Source of the DNA: Tubulanus polymorphus
Taxonomy: Eukaryota > Nemertea > Palaeonemertea > Tubulaniformes > Tubulanidae
Reading direction: 5' to 3'
Length of the DNA stretch: 64,000 bases
Assembly: GCF_964204645.1 (NCBI RefSeq)
Contig: NC_134032.1
Coordinates: 1,824,916-1,888,915, forward strand
Position 1 is the stretch's first letter. Each line of letters starts with the position of its first letter. Below, in pieces: positions 2,951 to 59,385 of the stretch. The position numbers and the translations under genes were made by a program. The notes beneath the pieces were generated by a model. That model searched no databases and had not been told where the DNA came from. It was given only the letters and a program-made list of their open reading frames with translations.

Positions 2951-3323
2951 AGAGCTGAAGAGAAGCCGCGTTAAGCCGGCGTAGAATCAGAAAACGAACA
3001 GATTAAAACCCATTCGCCAGTTAACTTCATCGAGTAGATGTTGGTTGTTGGTGTTTTCTGACCAGATTGTGACATTTTATTTCGGCAAAGAATCCGCTGC
3101 TAGGAATTGTGCAAGTCGAATGAAGAGAATCAACGTCGGTTTTCGCAGACGAATCGTCATTTCAGTCGCTCACTGATTATCAGGCGCCATCTAGCGCCTA
3201 TGCACGATAAGAACGCGTGACGTCATGACCAACGACCGTACGCTCCTGCTGTTAGATCGGTTATAGCTTTGCTACTATAAATACATTTCAACCATGAAAC
3301 AATGAAGAATATACTGTATTTGA

Positions 3324-3753
3324 AGGGATATCACCTCACCTGGTGAGGGGATATCACCTCACCTGATGAGGGGATATCACCTCACCTGATAAGGGGATAT
3401 CACCTCAACTGATGAGGGGATATATCACCTCATCTGATGAGGGGTATATCACCTCACCTGATGAGGGGATGTATCACCTCATCTGATGAGGGGATATCAC
3501 CTCACCTGGTGAGGGGATATCACCTCACCTGATGAGGGGATATCACCTCACCTGATGAGGGGATGTATCACCTCACCTGATGAGGGGATATCACCTCACC
3601 TGACGAGGGGATATCACCTCACCTGGTGAGGGGATATATCACCACACCTGATGAGGGGATGTATCACCTCATCTGATGAGGGGATGTGTCACCTCATCTG
3701 ATGAGGGGATATCACCTCACCTGATGAGGGGATATCACCTCACCTGATGAGGG
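3324..3753. repeat. Palindromic satellite, 18 units of 23-25 bp
   Basis: Eighteen head-to-tail units have the form GGATATCACCTCACCTGATGAGG. Each contains the inverted repeat CCTCACC..GGTGAGG or CCTCA..TGAGG around a 1-5 base centre, so every unit can form a small hairpin. Length changes come from GATATC versus GATATATC or GATGTATC spacers. Two isolated units lie on the opposite strand at 55255-55306. Confidence 0.95.
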
Positions 3754-6142: not shown

Positions 6143-7483
6143 TTACACCGAGTCCTCTTGTCGACCGTAGATTTTCAAGTAACCGTTTTTACCGGTCCGC
6201 ATTTCGGCCGCGGACGACGAACCGGACGCGTCGGCGTTGTTCGTAGCGCGTAGACTGGTCGCCTGCGTGCAGACGCTGGCACGCGGGCGCGCTCCGGGCG
6301 CCGATTGGTTACTGGCGGCGGCGGCGATCTCGGAGAACAGGCCGTCCGTCTGATTGGCCCGGTTATGCACGCATATGCAGAACAGACGTTTGAAAGTCTT
6401 ACGGAATTTCGTGCTGAACATACTGTACAGGATAAAGTTAATGGCGGCGTTTATTTGAATGAGTAAGTTTGTAAAGTTGCCCGCGATGCGGCGGTCGTTG
6501 TCTTGGCGAACGGTCAAGTCCTGTTTCCTGATAATCTCCGAGGATTTCATGAGTAACATGATCGCAGACGGTAGCTGGCAGATCAAGAACACGACCACGA
6601 CGCTGATGAGCATCACCGTAATTCGCTGTTGTTCCTGTTGGTGGCGCTCGCGTCGCGCGTCGCACGTCGACACGTCGACGCATATCATAGTCTTACGCGC
6701 TTTGTTGGCCTGCATCACCGAGTGTATGAGCAGCGAATTGAACACGGCCAGTAGGAGAAGCGGAATGAACGTGAACAGGGCCGTGTTGATCCAAAAATAG
6801 CCGATCTTCGCCAGCATCGTTCGGTAGGCGGTAGCGGCGAATTTGGGCGGTATGGTCGCGTTGGTTTTTCGGTCGACCAGTCCGTAGACGCATTTGTGCT
6901 CGAAAAAGTCCGGCAACGTGCACAGAAACGACACGCTGCACACGGCCGCTATGATCCACTTCGCCCGTTTGGTCGTGCAGATCACGCGGCCCTTCATCGG
7001 GTGACGCACCGCTATGTATCGCTCCGCGGTGAACGTTAACGTTAACCAGGTGCCCGTGTTGCTGAAATAGTTCGCCATGCAACGAACGACCGGGTAGAGA
7101 TTACAGAAAAACAAATTCAACTTCACGGCAGGGAAAGTCCGAAAGAACATGACAATAGATAGAAATAGGTAGAGAGTGTCTTGTAGAGCTAACATCGTCA
7201 GATAATAGTTCGTACTAGATCGCATCCACTTGCGGGTCAATACCGTCATGTTAACTACATTACCCAGAATTCCGCAAATGTCCACGAACACGGCTATCGG
7301 ACGCACGACTAACCGGACAGTGGCCAGTAGTTCTTTGGACCTCCGTTCGGCCTCGTCAGCGCTCATGTCCGAATCCGGATACATGTGCGATAGGTTGTAG
7401 TCGGCGCTGCCCACGCTGTAGTAGATACTTTCGTTCAACAGGGAAAGTTCGGGGGTGACGGCGAAATTGACCCCGGCCGTCAT
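6143..7483 (-). CDS. Class A GPCR, FMRFamide receptor / GPR139-like, intronless
   Basis: A 446-residue seven-helix receptor expected at the plasma membrane, coupling an extracellular ligand, most likely a neuropeptide, to G proteins. Helices run at about 56-82 (GN at 74-75), 93-114 (LALQD, D102), 131-158 (E154-R155-Y156, the DRY position), 174-191 (W176), 228-256 (P241), 288-312 (FLICQLP, the FxxCxxP switch at 299-305) and 336-356. Helix 7 has NFILY (349-353) in place of NPxxY, as is common in FMRFamide-receptor-like proteins. C198 in loop 2 and C127 or C135 are candidates for the conserved disulfide. N17, N30 and N208 are N-glycosylation sequons. C369 and C371 could be lipidated. The tail ends EDSV, a possible PDZ ligand. 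The ATG is the first after an in-frame TAG (7511-7513) and has G at -3. The whole receptor is one exon. Family placement is by motif only; the ligand is unknown. Confidence 0.93.
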
Positions 7484-9049
7484 CTCGAGCGCGTAGAGAG
7501 TCGTTTGAATCTAAATGCTAAATATAGTTTTATTCCGAGCAATAGCGACACGTACAGAGGCTACTAGGATAGACAGATCGGGATCGGCTGCTGGAGGGTT
7601 AACAAACTCGCATCACACCGGACTGTTTGTATGAAAGCGTTGAATCACGTTGAGTGTCTCTTAGGGTTCTGTCCTCCCTCTATGGTAGGATTCGACTACG
7701 AATCCGTGAAAATCCGAACAAATCCATCCTTCCAAGCGGAAAACCCGTGATTTCACACGTCAAATCGAGGTTAGAAAGCAAATCTTCGCGATGAGTCAAT
7801 CCCGGATGATTTCCTCGCTTACCAGCGACGCTGTTCAGTCGGTGGCGGCTTTCAGCTCCACCGATGATGCGTAGCTTTCAGGTCACTTGCGATATATCGC
7901 CCCTAATGGCCGAGAATCGCAGACATCGTTGAAGAATCCTATAGGTGGCGCATCAGTCGTCGTTTTCAATGTTTTTATCGCTAAAACGAGAAAGACAGAT
8001 GAACAAATTAGAATCTTTTTCTAAAAACAAGTTTCCCTACACTCGACCTCGTGACCAAAGCCGTATATATGGAAATCTGATATCCCATCTAAAACTTGGC
8101 ACAACTTAGTTTACAGAGGCCGGTTTTATAGTCTGAAATTAACCCGAGCGCTAACTTAATTCATTTTCGATTGAGTTAAAGATGATACCGAACCGGGCAT
8201 AGGTGTATTGGAGACGTAATATGACTTATTGTAATGAGATGCTTGCATGCATTCGCGGTAAACTGTACAACCAACGTTATCGACACCAGTTTGAAATACA
8301 GTTCAGATTTCGGATTTTTATCAAATCATTATTACTTTTGAATATATACCGTTGATGTACGTATGGTGTTTGCCCCTTTTGCGCGACGGTTATATGTTTA
8401 TATACTCAAGGTCATCGTGGAGCCGCGTTCCTGACCAGAAATCTCATCATTTTTTTCTACATTCAATTTTCCCCGGACCGTCGAAGGTCGTTATGGAGCC
8501 TTGCTCTTCGCCGGAAATTGGGTGCTAGCCGTCGGCCTGAGTGCAGTATTAACCGACAGTGCGCCGGCTGTCAGTCCGATGACAAACTGCCCGCGTCGGG
8601 GTCAATCGTCGCGTAATTGCTAAGATTAACGCGGATTAATCAGGATTTGCTCCACAATGCGCGTTAATCCGGGATTACAAGGACCTGTTAGGAGATATCA
8701 AGAGGTCCTGTAATCATCCCTTTTCCTGCAACACGAAGCGACGACCGAGTTCTAAACAAAATGCGCATCTTCAACTGATTACCGCCGGTAACGGTTGTTT
8801 AATCAAACGACCTCGACCTTTATTTACACCCGGACTCACGCGCGAATTAATCCGCCCTAGATTGAAGTGTCGCCCGTCTCCCGCGCTGTTTCTTGTCGGT
8901 TGTCTACTGAGCGACAGCGCCCAACCCCTTTAACGTGTAATCTTTAAATCATTCATTGACATTAGACTTCACAACAGCAGGTGATCAAAGATTTGATGAA
9001 AAAGATATGGAGACGGCCGTGGTGGTATCGTAGTAAAAAGTATATCTAT
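7484..9049. other. Upstream region of the receptor, no other gene seen
   Basis: This should hold the 5' UTR and promoter of the minus-strand receptor, but no convincing TATA box or start site could be fixed. A diverged direct repeat lies at about 8408-8445 and 8484-8520 (AAGGTC.T..TGGAGCC....CCGGAAAT); the words recur in the tail of the 39-kb satellite. The lone GGTGGCGC word near 7946 resembles the end of family S. Confidence 0.45.
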
Positions 9050-13184: not shown

Positions 13185-14086
13185 CACCCCCCACCTCGCT
13201 AAATACAGTCCTGGAATAAGCCTGGATCGTTCAGGAGATGGGCGGGGTGCAAAAGAGGGTTTGGAGATGGAAAGGGTTGATGATATGAGAATATGTTCGT
13301 AGAACGCGAAGGGGAGTGTGTCAGTGGAGCGCGGGGAGGAGGAGGCGCGGAAGATAACCTGACGCGCGAAATAAATATCAACGCGAGGTCAAGGTCATTG
13401 TCTTGAATCAACGGTTATTCAAGGTTGAAATTGAAAACAAACAAAAAAACGAATTCAAAAAACGTACACCCGAACCTCCGAGCCAAACGTGAAGATTGAT
13501 TTCAATTCGAGTTTAATTAACAGCTTTTTGGCGGCTCTCGACCCGCACGCGCCGATTCGAAACTTTCCAGTTACAACGAAAAAAAAATCTTTCAACGGTT
13601 AAGAACACGATCGGTAACGAAGCGAAACGATTTAAATATCGTACGTGTCGGACCCGTTTCTGCGTAGTGGTTCTGAAACTTCTCTATCAGTTCTACCGAT
13701 TTGCTGTTGTTCAGCCCTCGCGTGTTCTCGGAACGTTTACAGATGGTTTTTTTTTAGTGTTCAGTTATATCGAGTGGAGCCTAATGCAGACGAGTTTTAA
13801 ATTCCCCCCGAAAGCTACAACGTTTCAGCGAGATTTATTTACGGATTTTTGTTGCATTCGAACGCGATTTTCGCAACTGACATGTTCTAAATTAGGAGCG
13901 GCTCTTTAAGTGTGGAGTCATGTTATCACGAATATGAAATTTACCCCGTGACCCATACTTCAAACATGCTGAAATAAGACCCCGAAAATCGATTGATTTC
14001 ATGTCGGATGTATAACAAACTATCGATTATATCTACCGCGGTACGTCGAGGTCCCCTCTATGCTAAAACTTAAAACCAGAAAATAA
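13185..14086. other. Gene-free stretch
   Basis: Contains a pyrimidine/purine-rich part near 13240-13350 and a short trace of R2 near 14020. No gene is supported. Confidence 0.45.
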
Positions 14087-14222
14087 GATAAAACCCCACT
14101 ATCGTCTGACGATGATCTCTAGGGTGAGATCGAAACGTCGTGTCTTATATATATTTTTGATTGAATAGATAAATTCTTGTTTTTAAATTCTTTTAATCCG
14201 TAGATAGTGGGGATTTTATCTT
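14087..14222. repeat. Hairpin element with hammerhead-like core, flanked by inverted repeats
   Basis: The outer arms AAGATAAAACCCCACTATC (about 14087-14105) and GATAGTGGGGATTTTATCTT (about 14203-14222) are near-perfect inverted repeats. Just inside the left arm lies CTGACGA (14106-14112), one T, then a perfect 6-bp stem GATCTC / GAGATC (14114-14119 and 14126-14131) with loop TAGGGT, then GAAACGTC (14132-14139). Similar motifs occur at 22020-22053, 26069-26150 and 56478-56513. The element class is not known from sequence; Penelope-like or another retroelement terminal region is possible. Confidence 0.6.
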
Positions 14223-14268
14223 ATTATCCGTTTACCACGTTTGAGTGTGGTTATCGTTCTATCAAAAC

Positions 14269-14330
14269 CGGAAATTTGATTGAATACAGTAAGATCTGAT
14301 AATGTTTAAAACTATCGATTATAACGAAAG
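14269..14330. repeat. Dispersed repeat R2, copy 2
   Basis: Second copy of the 60-bp sequence at 13127-13184, separated from the hairpin element by about 45 bases. Confidence 0.75.
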
Positions 14331-14720: not shown

Positions 14721-14888
14721 AGCGAACTCGTATATAGGCTGCCTGGGATAACGAAATAAAAACGTGTAGCATTGAAAGCCATTCCGCGGCGGCGCGTCAC
14801 TTGATTAGATCTCTCAAAAAGTATATACGTGTAATACAGTAATTACGTGTATGTATTTTCAGCGACAAAGAATCTGTGTATATAAAAC

Positions 14889-15823
14889 AACTTAAGATCA
14901 GTCTATAAGCTCATGTTGGTTCTATATCCAATCTAACAACTTAAGACCAGTTTAAGCACATTTTGAAACTAATATCTAACCAATCTAATTATACTTAAGG
15001 CCAGTCTAAGCTCATTTTGGTTCTATAGCCAATCTAACAATTTAAGACCAGTCTAAGCTTATGTTGGTTCTATAGCCAATCTAACAACTTAAGACCAGTC
15101 TAAGCACATTTTGGTACTAATAAAGCCAATCTAACAACTTAAGACCAGTCTGAGCTCATGTTGGTTCTATAACCAATCTAACAACTTAATACCAGTCTAA
15201 ACTCATTTTGGTTCTTTAACCAATCTAACAACTTAAGATCAGTCTATAAGTTCATGTTGGTTCTATATCCAATCTAACAACTTAAGACCAGTCTAAGCTC
15301 ATGTTGGTTCTAAACCAATCTAACAGCTTAAGATCAGTCCAATCTAATGTTTACCTCTATATCCAATCTAACAACTTAAGACCAGTCTAAGCTCATGTTG
15401 GTTCTATATCCAATCTAACAACTTAAGACCAGTCTAAGCTCATGTTGGTTCTAAACCAATCTAACAACTTAAGACCAGTCTAAGCTCATGTTGGTTCTAA
15501 ACCAATCTAACAGCTTAAGATCAGTCCAATCTAATGTTTACTTCTATATCCAATCTAACAACTTAAGACCAGTCTAAGCACATTTTGAAACTAATATCTA
15601 ACCAATCTAATTATACTTAAGATCAGTCTAAGCTCATTTTGGTTCTATAGCCAATCTAACAACTTAAGACCAGTTTAAGCACATTTTGAAACTAATATCT
15701 AACCAATCTAATTATACTTAAGATCAGTCTAAGCTCATTTTGGTTTTATAGCCAATCTAACAACTTAAGACCAGTCTAAACTCATTTTGGTTCTAATATA
15801 GCCAATCTAAAAACTTAAGACCC
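14889..15823. repeat. 47-bp satellite, block 1 (MITE-A core)
   Basis: About 20 diverged head-to-tail units with the recurrent words CCAATCTAACAACTTAAGAC, CAGTCTAAGCTCA and TTTTGGTTCTATA. Deleted and extended units (GCACATTTTGAAACTAATATC, TAATGTTTACTTCTATATC) occur more than once, so blocks of units have been copied together. The same unit fills the MITE at 29654-30159 and matches the core of the solo MITE at 44493-44632. Terminal repeats are not visible here. Confidence 0.93.
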
Positions 15824-16925: not shown

Positions 16926-17325
16926 TCTTCTACAACCAATCAAACAACTTAGACCATTCACAACTTAGGACGAAGCACATTTTGGTTTGATAATCATCAA
17001 AGTAACAATTTAAGATAAGTCCAATCTAATTTTGACCAGTCTAAGCTCATTTTGAGCCTATAACCAATCTAACAACATAAGACCAGTCTATAAGCTCATG
17101 TTGGTTCATATCCAATCTAACAACTTAAGACCAGTCTAAGCATAATTTTGGTACTAATATCTAACCAATCCAACTATACTTAAGACCAGTCTAAGCTCAT
17201 TTTGGTTCTAATATAGCCAATCTAAAAACTTAAGACCAGTCTTAGTCCAGTTTGATTTCTAACCAATCTCGAAACTTAAGACTAAGCTCATTCTGGTTCG
17301 TTAGCCATTTATATGACGTCTGAAA
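16926..17325. repeat. 47-bp satellite, block 2, degraded
   Basis: The same words as block 1 (CCAATCTAACAACTTAAGAC, AGTCTAAGCTCATTTTGG) occur in about eight units with many more substitutions and gaps, especially at both edges. The gap of about 1.1 kb from block 1 may be inserted sequence, or the two may have formed separately. Confidence 0.85.
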
Positions 17326-21499: not shown

Positions 21500-22015
21500 T
21501 AAATCAGTAATAACGCTCCGTCTAGCGGTAGTTGGCGGAACTATCGGAAATGAAGCATGGTCCGGTGGTTTCGAGCAGCGCTATCGTCTGCTATCGGTAA
21601 TTAAGCGCCACCTAGCGGTAATGAGCAGTATTATCCCCGCAGGTTGACGCGAGTAGGTTATCCGTCTGTCTGGAAAATGATTCAATATCGTCGGCAATTG
21701 GGTTGTGTAGTTAATGGCTTCCAACCATTCGTGAATAGAATATATGTCTCGATGTTGTCTGGTTATGGCTGATGATGAAATGCGCCCGCCCGCTATCTCC
21801 TCACTCGCCTCATCACAGCTTAACGCTGTCTGATCACTGCGCACATGCGATATACAATCTAAGTACGTATTGCATCTAATCTAGTACCTTTCCGAACTTT
21901 GATGGCTCCCTCCGACGCAAGCCCTTGAGCATAAGTAGTATCCATGACGTTAAATCCTTATGTAGCTATCAAACCTGGTCGAATAAAACACTCTAATCCG
22001 CGTCCATGAGGAATT
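21500..22015. other. Gene-free stretch with CTAGCGGTA words
   Basis: CTAGCGGTA occurs at about 21521 and 21613, with CTATCGGTAATTAAGCGCCA between them; these resemble ends of family S. Nothing else was recognised. Confidence 0.4.
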
Positions 22016-22056
22016 CCACCTGATGACGGCTGTTAGTCAACAGCCGAAACGTTGTG
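22016..22056 (+). repeat. Hammerhead-like hairpin motif
   Basis: CCAC is followed by CTGATGA (22020-22026), one C, a perfect 7-bp stem GGCTGTT / AACAGCC (22028-22034 and 22039-22045) with loop AGTC, then GAAACGTT (22046-22053) and GTGG. The flanking CCAC and GTGG are complementary. The arrangement equals that at 14106-14139 with a completely different stem. An AT-rich segment follows. Confidence 0.6.
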
Positions 22057-23960
22057 GTTTCAAAATTATTAATTTTGTGTTATAAAAATCAAAAGAATTG
22101 TGGGCCTTCTTCGTGTATCAACCTATCTGTCTGTTCACCCCTCAAACGCTTCGACAAACCTTCAGCATTTTCTGAAAACGTGTTCGTCAAGGTGTCCCCA
22201 TCCCCTGTGGCAGTACTCCAGACGTTTTTCTTTGAAAATGAATTAGGGAGTCGTGTGGGGACTATCAATTTTAGACAGACATTCACCGTCTGGGAAAGAT
22301 GTGTTCGGTCCATAGACTGCGCCATTCAAAAGGCGATCGTCTGAAGGGGTGCGGCTACAGACAGCAGATTGATAGCTGCATTAAATCACTGCGATTTCTC
22401 GTGAAATAGTAAAAAAATAGGCTATAGTCTAGGTAGGCCCCACTCTCATGCTCATGATTTCCAAATAAAAATGCGGCCTTGTTCTCTTAAATGTGGCCCT
22501 AAGTCATTTGATTAATCATTCCGTCAATGACTTTGTGGCCGGACTACCGATTGGTTACCAGGCCTACGTCAGTACGTGATTCTATGACGCTAGAATATCT
22601 AAACCTTCGCCGAAACTGTCATCCCCTCGATCCCCCCTCCACTGGGAGAGTGGGGAGAATGATCGGCCTTTCTTTGCGCTAATGAGCAACACACAGACTC
22701 ACAGACTGGTGGGTGAAATATGTGGCAAATGAAGCCCCATCTTTAACAGAAGCCCTTCGTTGAAACGACCGCGGGAATGTGATGTGCGATTAATACTGAA
22801 ATTCTATATAGAAGCCACTGACTTAGTGTCTGAAAAAAAAAAAAACAATAAAAGACCTTCACTCACAGGTCGACTGTAAAACTAGAGCAGAGCGGCTAAC
22901 AGGCGGTCTAATACACGAGTGAGATTACGTACATTATCATAGAATAAAATGATAATGATATTAGATCGACTTGGTGCAGCTTTCATTGATGATTGATCTA
23001 ATGACGAGACGAGCTGAATGAAAATTGAAGCGCCGAAGAACAATTTTCTAATACTAGAGAACCATGCCGATCGTCACTTGCCAAAAGCGGTTTACCCGGT
23101 CGCCACAGACCAGAGGTGGATCCAGCTTCACTACAAAATGGCCGTTGTGAATATATCAGTTCACTTTCGTATATTAAAGCATGTGTAAGATATCTAATCT
23201 AACGAAGCGTCCTACAGGGAGAGATACTTGTACGACAAAAAAAGAAGATTTTCGAGGTTTATTTCCAGTTATGTAAATCGGAATAAACTATAGCTTATAG
23301 AAGCTAAGTCAAAAGATTCGAGTAATTTTAGAGGGTCATTCTGAGCTCGGCCCAGATTCACAAAAAGGTTTAACTGTTAGATCGGCTTAATTTATTTATC
23401 GATTCAGTCTATTCAAAATCGATTTAGGCCTTAATCTTTTTCGTGAAACTTTGCCCCTCCTGAGTTAGTCACCCCATCCGTTCGGTTAACCCATGATTAA
23501 CCCATCTCCCTCAAACTTTATTTATTCTACTCGGGTCGTTCGTAGTCAAGCAAAGCCTGCAAGTGGCAGAACGGTTAATTACAGCAGCGCCAGCGCCTTG
23601 TCGCGTGATCGCACCGATTTGCGCTGAATTAAACCCCTGTTGCGCTGCAGCCGGTGAGAATATTCATCGCTTCTAATCTGGCGGTGGACGATAATCATTT
23701 TCTTTATCTCTATTCTAATATTTTATATGATTGCCGCTCGTCGTTTTATTCCGCAACGACACGCGACATTTTTACAGGATTGGATGGAAATATGGGGCGG
23801 GTAAGGATCGAAGTTGCGAAAGAATGTAACGTTTGTAGCGAAGGGCTGTAACGTTGAAAGTACTAAGGCGCAAGAAAATGCGATGGGCAAGCGAGAAAAT
23901 AACTAATTTCGAAGTGAGGGTTAGAGTGTAAGGGGTCGCGTAGGATGCAAGAAGCTGGTG
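22057..23960. other. Gene-free stretch
   Basis: Two opposed open frames of 96 and 78 codons overlap at 22054-22344, just after the hairpin motif. They could be a relic of a retroelement but carry no recognisable domain. An A-run is present near 22830-22845. No gene is supported. Confidence 0.4.
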
Positions 23961-25560: not shown

Positions 25561-26002
25561 CGTTTGACGAGCAATCGGCGGCAGTTCCGTCAAAACGAAT
25601 CATAATCTTATATCTCGATTCATGAAAATGGAAAAAAATCGTATTTTCTCGCGAGGCCGCGGTGCAGCAGTGTCTGAAGTGTCGCGCCGAACGTGAAGTT
25701 AATCGGGTGAATGGCGTCGCTATGAATACAAACGTACCGTTTGCATATCGGACTTTTACGAGGAAAAGTGTTTAACTCGCGGTATTCAGATCGCGACCGA
25801 CGGCGTTATGCAAAAATGTATCTTTCTCGCATTTGATGACGTCATCCCGGAGCGTCTCTTGAACGCAGTTCGACTAATTGAGTTTTGAATTACTTTAAGC
25901 CTTGCATCGAATAGAATCGATATATCTTATTGAGAACGCATGGACCCGATTCTATACGCTGAACTTTAAACTGATCTCAATAACATCGATAAAACTATTG
26001 AA
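25561..26002. other. Gene-free stretch
   Basis: CpG-rich sequence with no recognised repeat or frame. Confidence 0.4.
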
Positions 26003-26220
26003 AATCCCACAATTGTAGCCAGACAACGATATAAAGCTTGGAAAGTTTTCATTCAAGCTAGTTGTTTCATTCGACGTTTCGACCATATTCTAATAGTCAT
26101 CTATGACGCATTAGTCTATAAAGAAGACTATTAGAATATAGTTGAAAACGTCGAATGAAACTACTAGCTTAAATGAAAACCGTTCAGGCTTTACATCGTT
26201 ATTTCGTGATGGTGGGGATT
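26003..26220. mobile_element. Foldback element carrying two copies of the hairpin motif
   Basis: The left arm (26003-26104) and right arm (26117-26220) are inverted copies of each other: AATCCCAC..GTGGGGATT at the tips, then ACAACGATATAAAGC, TTTTCATTCAAGCTAG and TTTCATTCGACGTTTCGACC. A 12-base centre separates them. Each arm contains a version of the hairpin motif (GATGACTAT..GAAACGTCG type); the left arm reads on the minus strand, the right on the plus. The arms share words with the single copy at 56403-56520. Confidence 0.85.
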
Positions 26221-29653: not shown

Positions 29654-30159
29654 GGCCAGTTGCATAGTCATGACTTAGACTGAAGACCAGTCTAAGACCA
29701 ACTTAGTTCTATAGCCAATCTAACAACTTAAGACCAGTCTAAGCTCATTTTAGTTCTATAACCAATCTAACAACTTAAGACCAGTCTAAGCTCATTTTGG
29801 TTCTATAACCAATCTAACAACTTAAGACCAGTCTAAGCTCATTTTGGTTCTATAACCAATCTAACAACTTAAGACCAGTCTAAGCTCATTTTGGTTCTAT
29901 AACCAATCTAACAACTTAAGACCAGTCTAAGCTCATTTTGGTTCTATAACCAATCTAACAACTTAAGACCAGTCTAAGCTCATTTTGGTTCTATAACCAA
30001 TCTAACAACTTAAGACCAGTCTAAGCTCATTTTGGTTCTATAACCAATCTAACAACTTAAGACCAGTCTAAGTCCAACTTCGTTCTATAGCCAATCTAAC
30101 AAAAAACCAGTCTTAAGATTTAAGACCAATTTTGGACTTAAGTCACAACTGTGCAACTG
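29654..30159. mobile_element. MITE-A copy expanded by the 47-bp satellite
   Basis: Bounded by GGCCAGTTGCATAGTCATGA on the left and CACAACTGTGCAACTGGCC on the right, the terminal repeats seen in the solo MITE at 44493-44632. The interior has about eight near-identical 47-bp units (CTATAACCAATCTAACAACT then TAAGACCAGTCTAAGCTCAT). High unit identity compared with 14889-15823 implies recent amplification or homogenisation. The array lies cleanly inside the element, so it grew within it. Confidence 0.93.
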
Positions 30160-40429: not shown

Positions 40430-40922
40430 TACTGTCTGTCACACATGCTCTTCGTGCGACGTTTTGGTCCGTAATTTCGTTCATAATCGGTTGATCTGTA
40501 AATATTATGCATCAATTTGTTCAGTAAGGAATTTGCATTCAGAAATTAATCATGAACTGGCAGAAATTTGTTTGTGTTTTCTTCTATCAGCGATAGTTTA
40601 CCTAGCATACGCTCGCGTAATGCTGAAAAACGGCTTTTATGGCCCGTCACGTGGCGCCACCTACTGTATTCTGATATGCTAATGAGCAGGTGATGACGTC
40701 ACTGTAACGTTTCCGAGCGGATGTTTCAGCATTACGCGAGCGTATGCCGAGTAAACTATCGCTCATAAATGAAAACAAAAACAACTTTAGTGAAAATTGT
40801 TGTTTATTTCTGAATGCAAATCCCTTACTGAACAAATTGATGCGTAATAAAAGTAGATAAACCGATTATTAACGAAATTACGGACCAAAACGTCGCACGG
40901 AGAGTAGGTATGACAGACAGTA
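40430..40922. mobile_element. Long inverted repeat, two 199-bp arms
   Basis: The left arm (40430-40628) and right arm (40724-40922) are inverted copies; the tips are TACTGTCTGTCA and TGACAGACAGTA, and the inner ends AGCATACGCTCGCGTAATGC and its inverse. The arms differ at scattered sites and in a small middle region (CAGAAATTTGTTTGTG versus a longer AAACAACAATTTTCAC form). The 95-base spacer holds a perfect TGACGTCA (40694-40701). Transcription through it would give a hairpin RNA of about 200 bp. It may be a foldback MITE; no coding capacity. Confidence 0.92.
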
Positions 40923-56402: not shown

Positions 56403-56520
56403 GTAATTATATGAGGAGAGAATCCCACAATGATAATAAAAAGTCCGAAAATGAAACTTCGAGATAGTAGTTTATTTCAACGTTTCGACTATATCCTAAT
56501 AGTCATCTTCAGGAATAATG
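56403..56520 (-). repeat. Hairpin element with hammerhead-like core, copy at 56.5 kb
   Basis: On the minus strand, from 56513 down to 56478: CCTGAAGA, one T, a perfect 6-bp stem GACTAT / ATAGTC with loop TAGGAT, then GAAACGTTG. Further 3' come AAATAAACTACTATCTCGAA and, at the end, a TGTGGGATT word as in the foldback element at 26003-26220. Confidence 0.6.
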
Positions 56521-56709
56521 AGATACTACAGAAATTATGAGATTAGTCTCTTTGTCTCTGGATTGTATATATATATCTCATTAACTTAACGTGGGTTTTA
56601 TTCTGGGTCCAGTGGTAAACTTTACTTTGAATTCAGTTCAACGGCTAATGGGGTTGGTTTAGTTTAACTTTAGCCCCAGTTTCGCCAGTAGATCATGGGA
56701 TGAAAAACC

Positions 56710-59083: not shown

Positions 59084-59385
59084 TGTGTCTTATATAGCGC
59101 TAAATCCAGTTAAGCTGCTCAGAGTGCTTTACATTTTCGGTATTATTACCCCGGCCAATTTTTAGTACTCTAACATGTATCAGTCATCTCCCTGGGGAGA
59201 AGTAACACCGAGCTGCTAACAAGCGCTCAGGAGTCATCTATCAGAACAGGTTCCCGTTTAGTCCTGGGTGGAGAGAGGCAGTGAGGATAAGTGTCTTGCC
59301 CGAGGACACTACGGCAATGTACGGGGTTCGAACCCACGACCTGGCTTCCCAGAGCCGAACGCTCTAACCGCTCGGCCACACCGCT
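59001..59385 (-). mobile_element. tRNA-derived SINE, best-preserved copy, with (TAA)n tail
   Basis: On the minus strand the head has A box TGGCCGAGCGGTTAGAG (complement of 59362-59378) and B box GGGTTCGAACCC (59324-59335). The acceptor strands GCGGTGT and ACATTGC (complements of 59378-59384 and 59314-59320) pair along all seven positions if two G-T wobbles are allowed. The body follows (CCTGGGTGGAG, GATGACTCCTGAGCGC, CTCCCAGGGAGATGACTGAT), then AGCGCTATATAAGACACAT and a tail of about 27 ATT units (59001-59083). This is the classic layout of a LINE-mobilised SINE. The older relative is at 9050-9352. Confidence 0.9.

Follow-up and report, generated by a model that had tools for sequence, protein, structure and literature searches.

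What is the short hairpin that recurs in one stretch of the Tubulanus polymorphus genome, each time between the same two flanking motifs and each time with a different stem? We analysed 64,000 nucleotides of contig NC_134032.1 (positions 1,824,916 to 1,888,915 of the forward strand, RefSeq assembly GCF_964204645.1), referred to below as the window, in which a first-pass annotation had pointed out CTGANGA, a stem-loop and GAAACGT at three sites and had suggested a hammerhead ribozyme core. By their sequence, the hairpins are hammerhead-type motifs of Penelope-like elements (PLEs), present as thousands of mostly short copies and of a kind already known. The explanation that best accounts for the whole, and one in which we have high confidence, is that each window site is a short PLE insertion bearing the minimal hammerhead motif of its element.

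We scored the layout as CTGANGA, one nucleotide, a 6-bp stem, a 6-nt loop and GAAACGT. This exact 33-nt layout is found at three window sites, copies A and B on the plus strand and copy C on the minus strand, and with its perfect 6-bp stem it did not arise in any of 200 dinucleotide-preserving shuffles of the window, in which the flanks alone, at any spacing of 8-40 nt, occurred 15 times in total. The recurrence is thus as first described; the layout is indeed present at the third site, with its coordinates corrected from 56478-56513 to 56480-56512. In the whole genome (267,791,593 bases in 77 contigs), the pattern CTGANGAY-(14-30)-GAAACGT has 4,167 matches, compared with 24 for the reversed pattern. 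Among 82 listed copies of exactly 33 nt we distinguish five frequent core types: GACTAT/ATAGTC (17 exact copies), GATCTC/GAGATC (16), GGCTGT/ACAGCC (9) and two types with GGCTAA/TTAGCC (7 and 3). The cores of A and C are identical to frequent genome types, and B deviates at one base, where C replaces the usual U. Many of the rarer listed 33-nt rows carry single uncompensated stem changes, as in decaying copies, and a few listed genome matches (L171-L175, for example) resemble chance.

A canonical Penelope-like element is defined by a reverse transcriptase with a C-terminal GIY-YIG domain in tandem units of pseudo-long terminal repeats (pLTRs). The motifs of families A, B and C adjoin PLE frames in the same genome. 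Both domains lie above the Pfam cut-offs in a single frame in family B (P0001, 713 aa) and in family C (P0004, 833 aa). At locus L112 the 713-aa open frame (RVT_1 2e-9, GIY-YIG 5e-5) is flanked by two family-B motifs. At L188 the 833-aa open frame (RVT_1 6e-10, GIY-YIG 1e-5) is bracketed by identical copies of the family-C motif that lie 2,858 nt from each other, a tandem pLTR-ORF-pLTR arrangement in the one unit examined. Family A splits the two parts across frames: at L116 an RVT_1 frame (1.7e-11) lies upstream of the family-A motif, and a separate frame matches GIY-YIG with an E-value of 0.0029, below the Pfam cut-off.

The window copies, with their surroundings, resolve into the following features.

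14072-14082, no strand: left target-site duplication candidate, AAAACCAGAAA, found by eye; partner at 14264-14274.
14083-14102, minus strand: inverted family-A tail fragment on the 5' side of copy A, forming inverted arms; 14079-14102 matches the tail on the other strand.
14106-14138, plus strand: copy A, minimal hammerhead core of family A; stem II GATCTC/GAGATC, extra U, stem III palindrome ACGU, H17 = C.
14139-14263, plus strand: remainder of the family-A leader and tail, including the CCAC..GTGTGG stem-loop, by sequence comparison.
14264-14274, no strand: right target-site duplication candidate, AAAACCGGAAA, found by eye; 10/11 identical to the left one.
21978-22003, minus strand: inverted family-B tail fragment on the 5' side of copy B, by sequence comparison.
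22020-22052, plus strand: copy B, minimal hammerhead core of family B; stem II GGCTGT/ACAGCC, extra base C where U is usual, stem I GUGG/CCAC in register.
22053-22122, plus strand: remainder of the family-B leader as far as the short 3' end, by sequence comparison.
26074-26106, minus strand: decayed left-hand foldback copy, head to head with the right-hand copy, by sequence comparison.
26118-26151, plus strand: decayed right-hand foldback copy, core degraded, stem GACTAT/ATAGTT, by sequence comparison.
56411-56543, minus strand: copy C insertion, comprising part of the pLTR, the core and the leader with its short 3' end; matches L188, a family-C element, at 99% across 133 nt.
56480-56512, minus strand: copy C, minimal hammerhead core of family C; stem II GACTAT/ATAGTC, extra U, H17 = U.
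56542-56577, plus strand: pLTR fragment lying inverted 5' of copy C; 97% over 36 nt, in opposite orientation.

Copy A matches both the family-A copy L170 (across 175 nt) and L116 (across 122 nt) at 91%, and copy B matches L112 at 82% across 112 nt. The three stems are unrelated yet each perfectly complementary over 6 bp, as had been claimed, and they are unrelated because the copies come from three different element families. The two looser copies reported in a foldback are also there: the foldback at about 26001-26220 consists of two decayed family-C copies lying head to head, and its stems are therefore not independent of the stem of C. Stem II of copy B can lengthen to 7 bp. Stem I comprises 4 pairs in B and 3 pairs in C, and that of A has itself decayed to 3 pairs, two of them G-U.

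Do these hairpins have the make-up of a hammerhead? CUGANGA before stem II and GAAA after it are exact in A, B and C and in all five family representatives, the genome copies having been selected by this very CUGANGA/GAAA pattern. Two textbook features are missing, stem II directly after A9 and stem III in cis; the other sequence features examined are present. Among 83 sampled copies that retain 4 or more of the 6 stem pairs, H17 is U in 50, C in 32 and G in 1. Stem III amounts to the palindrome ACGU without a loop, and no A15.1-U16.1 pair can form within one molecule, so a complete core should require a pair of RNAs or a pair of tandem units; this is in line with the earlier proposal that stem III would form best between two molecules. 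The extra base between CUGANGA and stem II, to which attention had been drawn as an objection, is likewise confirmed: it is U in 82 of the 83 sampled copies, which had been preselected for a pyrimidine there, and a fixed-length search for A, C or G at this position gave 78 matches genome-wide against 4 in the control, so U is the rule. Known hammerhead alignments tolerate one or two nucleotides inserted beside stems (PMC10085705). The predicted fold is type I: CUGANGA follows a stem I of 2-4 bp, one U leads into a 6-bp stem II, and GAA, ACGU and H17 come after it. Isolated 33-nt cores fold with stem II in 3 of 3 cases.

An in-register stem I is a prediction of the hammerhead model that the first-pass annotation did not contain. 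We examined covariation in stem II and a four-pair stem I (from 1.1-2.1 onward), using one representative for each of five families. Paired cells make up 92% of the total and both sides changed in 8 of 10 pairs; the covariation score is 0.82, compared with 0.26 on average after shuffling. For four of the five covariation measures, no shuffle out of 500 reached the observed value, and sliding the partner by 1-3 columns left 26-48% of cells paired. All cells are paired in the six pairs of stem II, where both sides changed in 5 of 6 across the five families. In stem I, position 1.1-2.1 is G-C in 5 of 5 families, 80% of cells are paired and both sides changed in 3 of 4 pairs. The claim that stem changes are compensated accordingly stands for family types, which covary, and fails for single copies, which mutate without compensation, as dead copies do. 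Taken together, the PLE frames, the covariation of stems I and II and an H17 of U or C in 82 of 83 copies uphold, as a reading of the sequence, the suggestion of a hammerhead core in a Penelope-like element.

Several observations pull the other way. When 299 stop-to-stop fragments of the window were screened for motifs and judged by eye, no PLE frame, reverse transcriptase or GIY-YIG fragment stood out. The covariation rests on five related sequences, few in number, with the structure drawn from these same sequences, and the fifth measure, further pair types, was matched by 24 of 500 shuffles. Stem I is short, with 2 bp in family D2 and 3 bp in C and D1. When A and C are folded with their flanks, the minimum-energy folds pair otherwise, and most or many shuffles fold at least as well. 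The covariance-model search that had been proposed as a check returned no match to the Rfam hammerhead models, either at the gathering score or up to an E-value of 10, in the window, around B or in the five family copies; the best Rfam matches were miRNA models on tandem arrays and inverted repeats. Such a miss is expected if stem III is missing.

How do these motifs compare with known hammerheads? Cervera and De la Pena reportedly described minimal hammerhead motifs of Penelope-like elements in 2014, and PLE hammerheads are said, in the title of a 2017 paper by Lunse, Weinberg and Breaker, to cleave RNA as dimers. In the available sections of two reviews, minimal PLE hammerheads lack helix III and may self-cleave as dimers (PMC6155905, PMC7761336). 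The motif predicted here fits these helix III-less hammerheads and, as far as those sections go, shares with them a type I core, thousands of dispersed copies in animal genomes, a tie to PLE pLTRs and possible dimeric cleavage.

An extra nucleotide in a hammerhead core also has a precedent, reportedly described by De la Pena and Flores in 2001 for a viroid, to judge from the title. In the part of PMC11014351 available, the extra core nucleotide of the viroid comes with weak activity and is tied to infectivity; unlike there, the host element here is a PLE. Metazoan retrozymes similarly carry type I hammerheads in small animal repeats and, in the accessible text, are tandem non-coding repeats with circular RNAs and hammerhead loop contacts; most of their hammerheads have a helix III, weak in amphibians, whereas the copies here are truncated PLE insertions without helix III (PMC7229834). 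We considered and rejected a retrozyme identity for the T. polymorphus copies, since the fetched copies are single or head-to-head insertions and not tandem repeats. Two same-strand neighbours 67-69 nt apart occur among the listed fixed-length matches.

Where in the element RNA does the motif lie? A TATA-like box in the pLTR is followed by the A of an initiator-like TCA after 31 nt in family A, 29 nt in B and 31 nt in C, and the initiator A precedes CTGANGA by 4, 7 and 7 nt, respectively. From these positions, the element RNA would be expected to carry the motif right at its 5' end. The fetched loci and the window together hold 102 core matches, 68 of which were assigned to families A-C and measured. 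Similarity is lost within 11 nt upstream of the core in 49 of the 68 copies (35 end at 4-9 nt, 13 at 0-3 nt and 1 at 11 nt), and the other 19 extend at least 17 nt upstream. About half of the copies therefore end at, or a few nucleotides from, the predicted transcription start, and we infer that these copy ends are RNA 5' ends. What tempers this is that the start site is itself a prediction, that 34 of the 102 rows (16 of family D and 18 unassigned) are unmeasured, and that the counts contain decayed and mis-assigned or duplicate rows (L175, L105 at 4891, L158).

Insertion 5' ends also tell which RNA was copied. For this we used a count that covers family C only, with the first 20 nt after the predicted bond as probe. 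Among 573 genome copies, the exact 12 nt before the bond are present in 494 (86%) and the exact next 12 nt downstream are kept in 435 (76%). Of the first 100 copies listed, 89 have those 12 nt intact, 8 show point changes in an otherwise retained motif and 3 break off 7-11 nt upstream of the bond, so that none of these 100 begins at the predicted cut (nucleotide 1.1). None of these 100 family-C insertions was thus copied from RNA cut at this site. In line with this, uncut RNA was the dominant template in vitro for the Poseidon element PAc of Anolis carolinensis, according to the available sections of PMC11167929. The absence of starts at the cut concerns template use and not chemistry, and the motif may retain the capacity to cleave. 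Together with the 5' ends near the predicted start and the share of head-to-head joins described below, this absence is the new detail that the copies add: they record how the element starts, copies and inserts itself.

The same observation raises the question of whether the motif is a ribozyme at all. The hairpin could be a leader element of the PLE with another main job, such as protein binding or a translation or packaging signal, and its likeness to a hammerhead a non-cutting relic. This is possible, if rather unlikely. It would account for the lack of copies beginning at the predicted cut among the 100 listed for family C, and a fast ribozyme is also made less likely by the extra base, by the loss of stem III and by the lack of Rfam matches. 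In the available text on Anolis, moreover, the PLE hammerhead cut nothing without protein, catalytic mutants left insertion unaffected, and no RNA-seq reads started or ended at the cut; the same text states that the motif does cut when protein is present (PMC11167929). What speaks for the hammerhead is that five families retain the core, an H17 other than G (82 of 83 copies) and a stem I in register, whereas a plain protein-binding hairpin needs neither H17 nor the register of stem I.

Alternatively, the extra U might be kept because it creates an AUG (CUGANG-AUG) as the start of the PLE frame, with the RNA fold secondary. The PAc frame does begin in the motif, as given in the available sections of PMC11167929; unlike it, the motif AUG in the open family-C unit of L188 opens 5 codons only, and the first in-frame AUG of the long family-C frame lies 108 nt past the core. 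A start codon alone would also leave the compensated changes in stems I and II unexplained, and we regard this alternative as quite improbable. By eye, the AUG made by the extra U in family D cores likewise opens merely 5 codons.

A third alternative, that the repeats are DNA-level palindromes or foldback elements without RNA function, is prompted by the way the copies are joined. Genome-wide, two CTGANGATG half-sites meet head to head within 30 nt at 390 junctions, compared with 1 in the control; a few of the listed junctions overlap or seem unrelated. Inverted repeats of this kind are therefore common, the window copies adjoin inverted fragments, and the stem II palindrome lies within some family-B junctions. 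We nevertheless consider it very unlikely that a palindrome is all there is: the direct tandem of L188 carries the motif unaltered, PLE frames flank the motif, and the conservation of unpaired core bases and of H17 contradicts the idea.

Chance resemblance in unrelated sequence, finally, has a negligible probability: the flanks alone do arise by chance (54 matches in viral and 37 in prokaryote contigs) and a few listed genome matches, such as L171-L175, seem accidental, but the shuffles gave no case with the stem, the genome count of 4,167 against 24 refutes it, and tails and flanks are homologous between copies. The viral and prokaryote flank matches are background only. A 6-bp stem in this register occurs in 0 of the 54 exact viral matches, 2 of which have a hammerhead-like 6-bp stem without the extra base; it occurs in 1 of the 37 prokaryote matches, for which the search pattern had already fixed a closing G-C pair. 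The viral contigs L016 and L020 carry a hammerhead-like core without the extra base, CTGATGAGACCAG...CTGGTCGAAACG.

How, then, would PLE insertions that carry a minimal hammerhead come to lie head to head? Such joins involve no more than about 780 of the 4,167 cores, or one in five. We compared 12 fetched pairs, many of them from loci picked because close head-to-head cores were listed there. A script in 11 of the 12 pairs, and inspection by eye in the twelfth (L105), showed the stem-loop tail on one side and the short 3' end on the other. The outer flanks share 11-17 bp in 9 of the 12 pairs, whereas mismatched flanks shared at least 10 bp in 0 of 132 comparisons (maximum 9 bp), which indicates that a head-to-head pair is usually one insertion event. 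We infer that two-sided target-primed synthesis is the simplest reading for most head-to-head pairs. Reverse transcription would begin at one of two leader sites, the 'short' end or the stem-loop 'tail', and cDNA synthesis would pass through the uncut hammerhead to the RNA 5' end, which in family C would give copies about 110-145 nt long. For a smaller share of insertions, two cDNAs begun on opposite sides of the target cut would be linked head to head close to the 5' ends of their RNAs. If cleavage occurs at all, it would be no step in making these insertions.

Against simple two-sided joining, besides the way in which the 12 pairs were chosen, stand the 3 of 12 pairs in which a clear target-site duplication is missing, the inverted partners that break inside the core at L128, L129, L134, L148 and L166, and, at the junctions of the family-B loci L092, L093/L094, L099 and L120, a snap-back hairpin that involves the stem II region. 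The snap-back junctions of these four family-B loci look self-primed. Self-priming on an antisense template was considered as the general route and set aside, as it does not on its own account for a long 3' end paired with a short one in 12 of 12 pairs; we therefore prefer two-sided priming for most pairs and self-priming for some. One head-to-head hammerhead pair, at L111 (G000:C1:12552000-12561500), lies amid Polinton/Maverick-like frames, among which a packaging ATPase and an integrase were recognised by eye.

Relatives offer partial parallels to two-sided priming. In the available sections of PMC11167929, the protein of the Anolis PLE acts on both target strands, cutting and extending each, and Poseidon PAc, like the elements here, has a frame with reverse transcriptase and GIY-YIG, a pLTR, hammerhead stems I and II, two reverse-transcription start sites bounding a 30-40 bp tail, and an AC-rich stem-loop. 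The motif at the predicted RNA 5' end and the joins with one long and one short end fit an enzyme that primes from both target strands. The Penelope families of Adineta vaga, in the portion of PMC3846280 available, also have direct pLTRs with an inverted pLTR, an optional tail of about 31 bp on one inverted pLTR, short target-site duplications, a TATA box and initiator in the pLTR, and head-to-head palindromic junctions. The paper does not use the word hammerhead, and it favours self-priming on an antisense template, whereas the long and short ends found here suggest two-sided target priming (PMC3846280).

A more speculative step would give the motif a part in this process, as a stem III-less hammerhead at the capped 5' end that serves as a pairing device for the two-sided insertion of two element RNAs. 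RNAs primed from each target strand would have their 5' ends held together by an ACGU/ACGU helix and an exchanged stem I; both cDNAs would stop at the held 5' ends and be joined head to head, with cleavage afterwards, if ever. We consider this improbable.

The window holds several other repeats and features. One 47-48 bp satellite (ACTTAAGACCAGTCTAAGCTCA...) forms three separate arrays within about 15 kb (14886-15822, 17034-17282 and 29679-30102). A second foldback is made up of a 120-nt inverted repeat (40430-40549 / 40803-40922), whose arms are 88% complementary and 253 nt apart; the exact hammerhead core was not found in it. At 3321-3753 lies a 23-bp tandem repeat with partly palindromic units and below-threshold Rfam miRNA matches. 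Two tRNA-like sequences, a GGTTCGAGTCC box at about 24000 on the plus strand and an odd tRNA call at 59313-59384 on the minus strand, are possibly tRNA-derived repeats. A 455-aa open frame at 6143-7510 on the minus strand resembles, by eye, a seven-helix peptide receptor.
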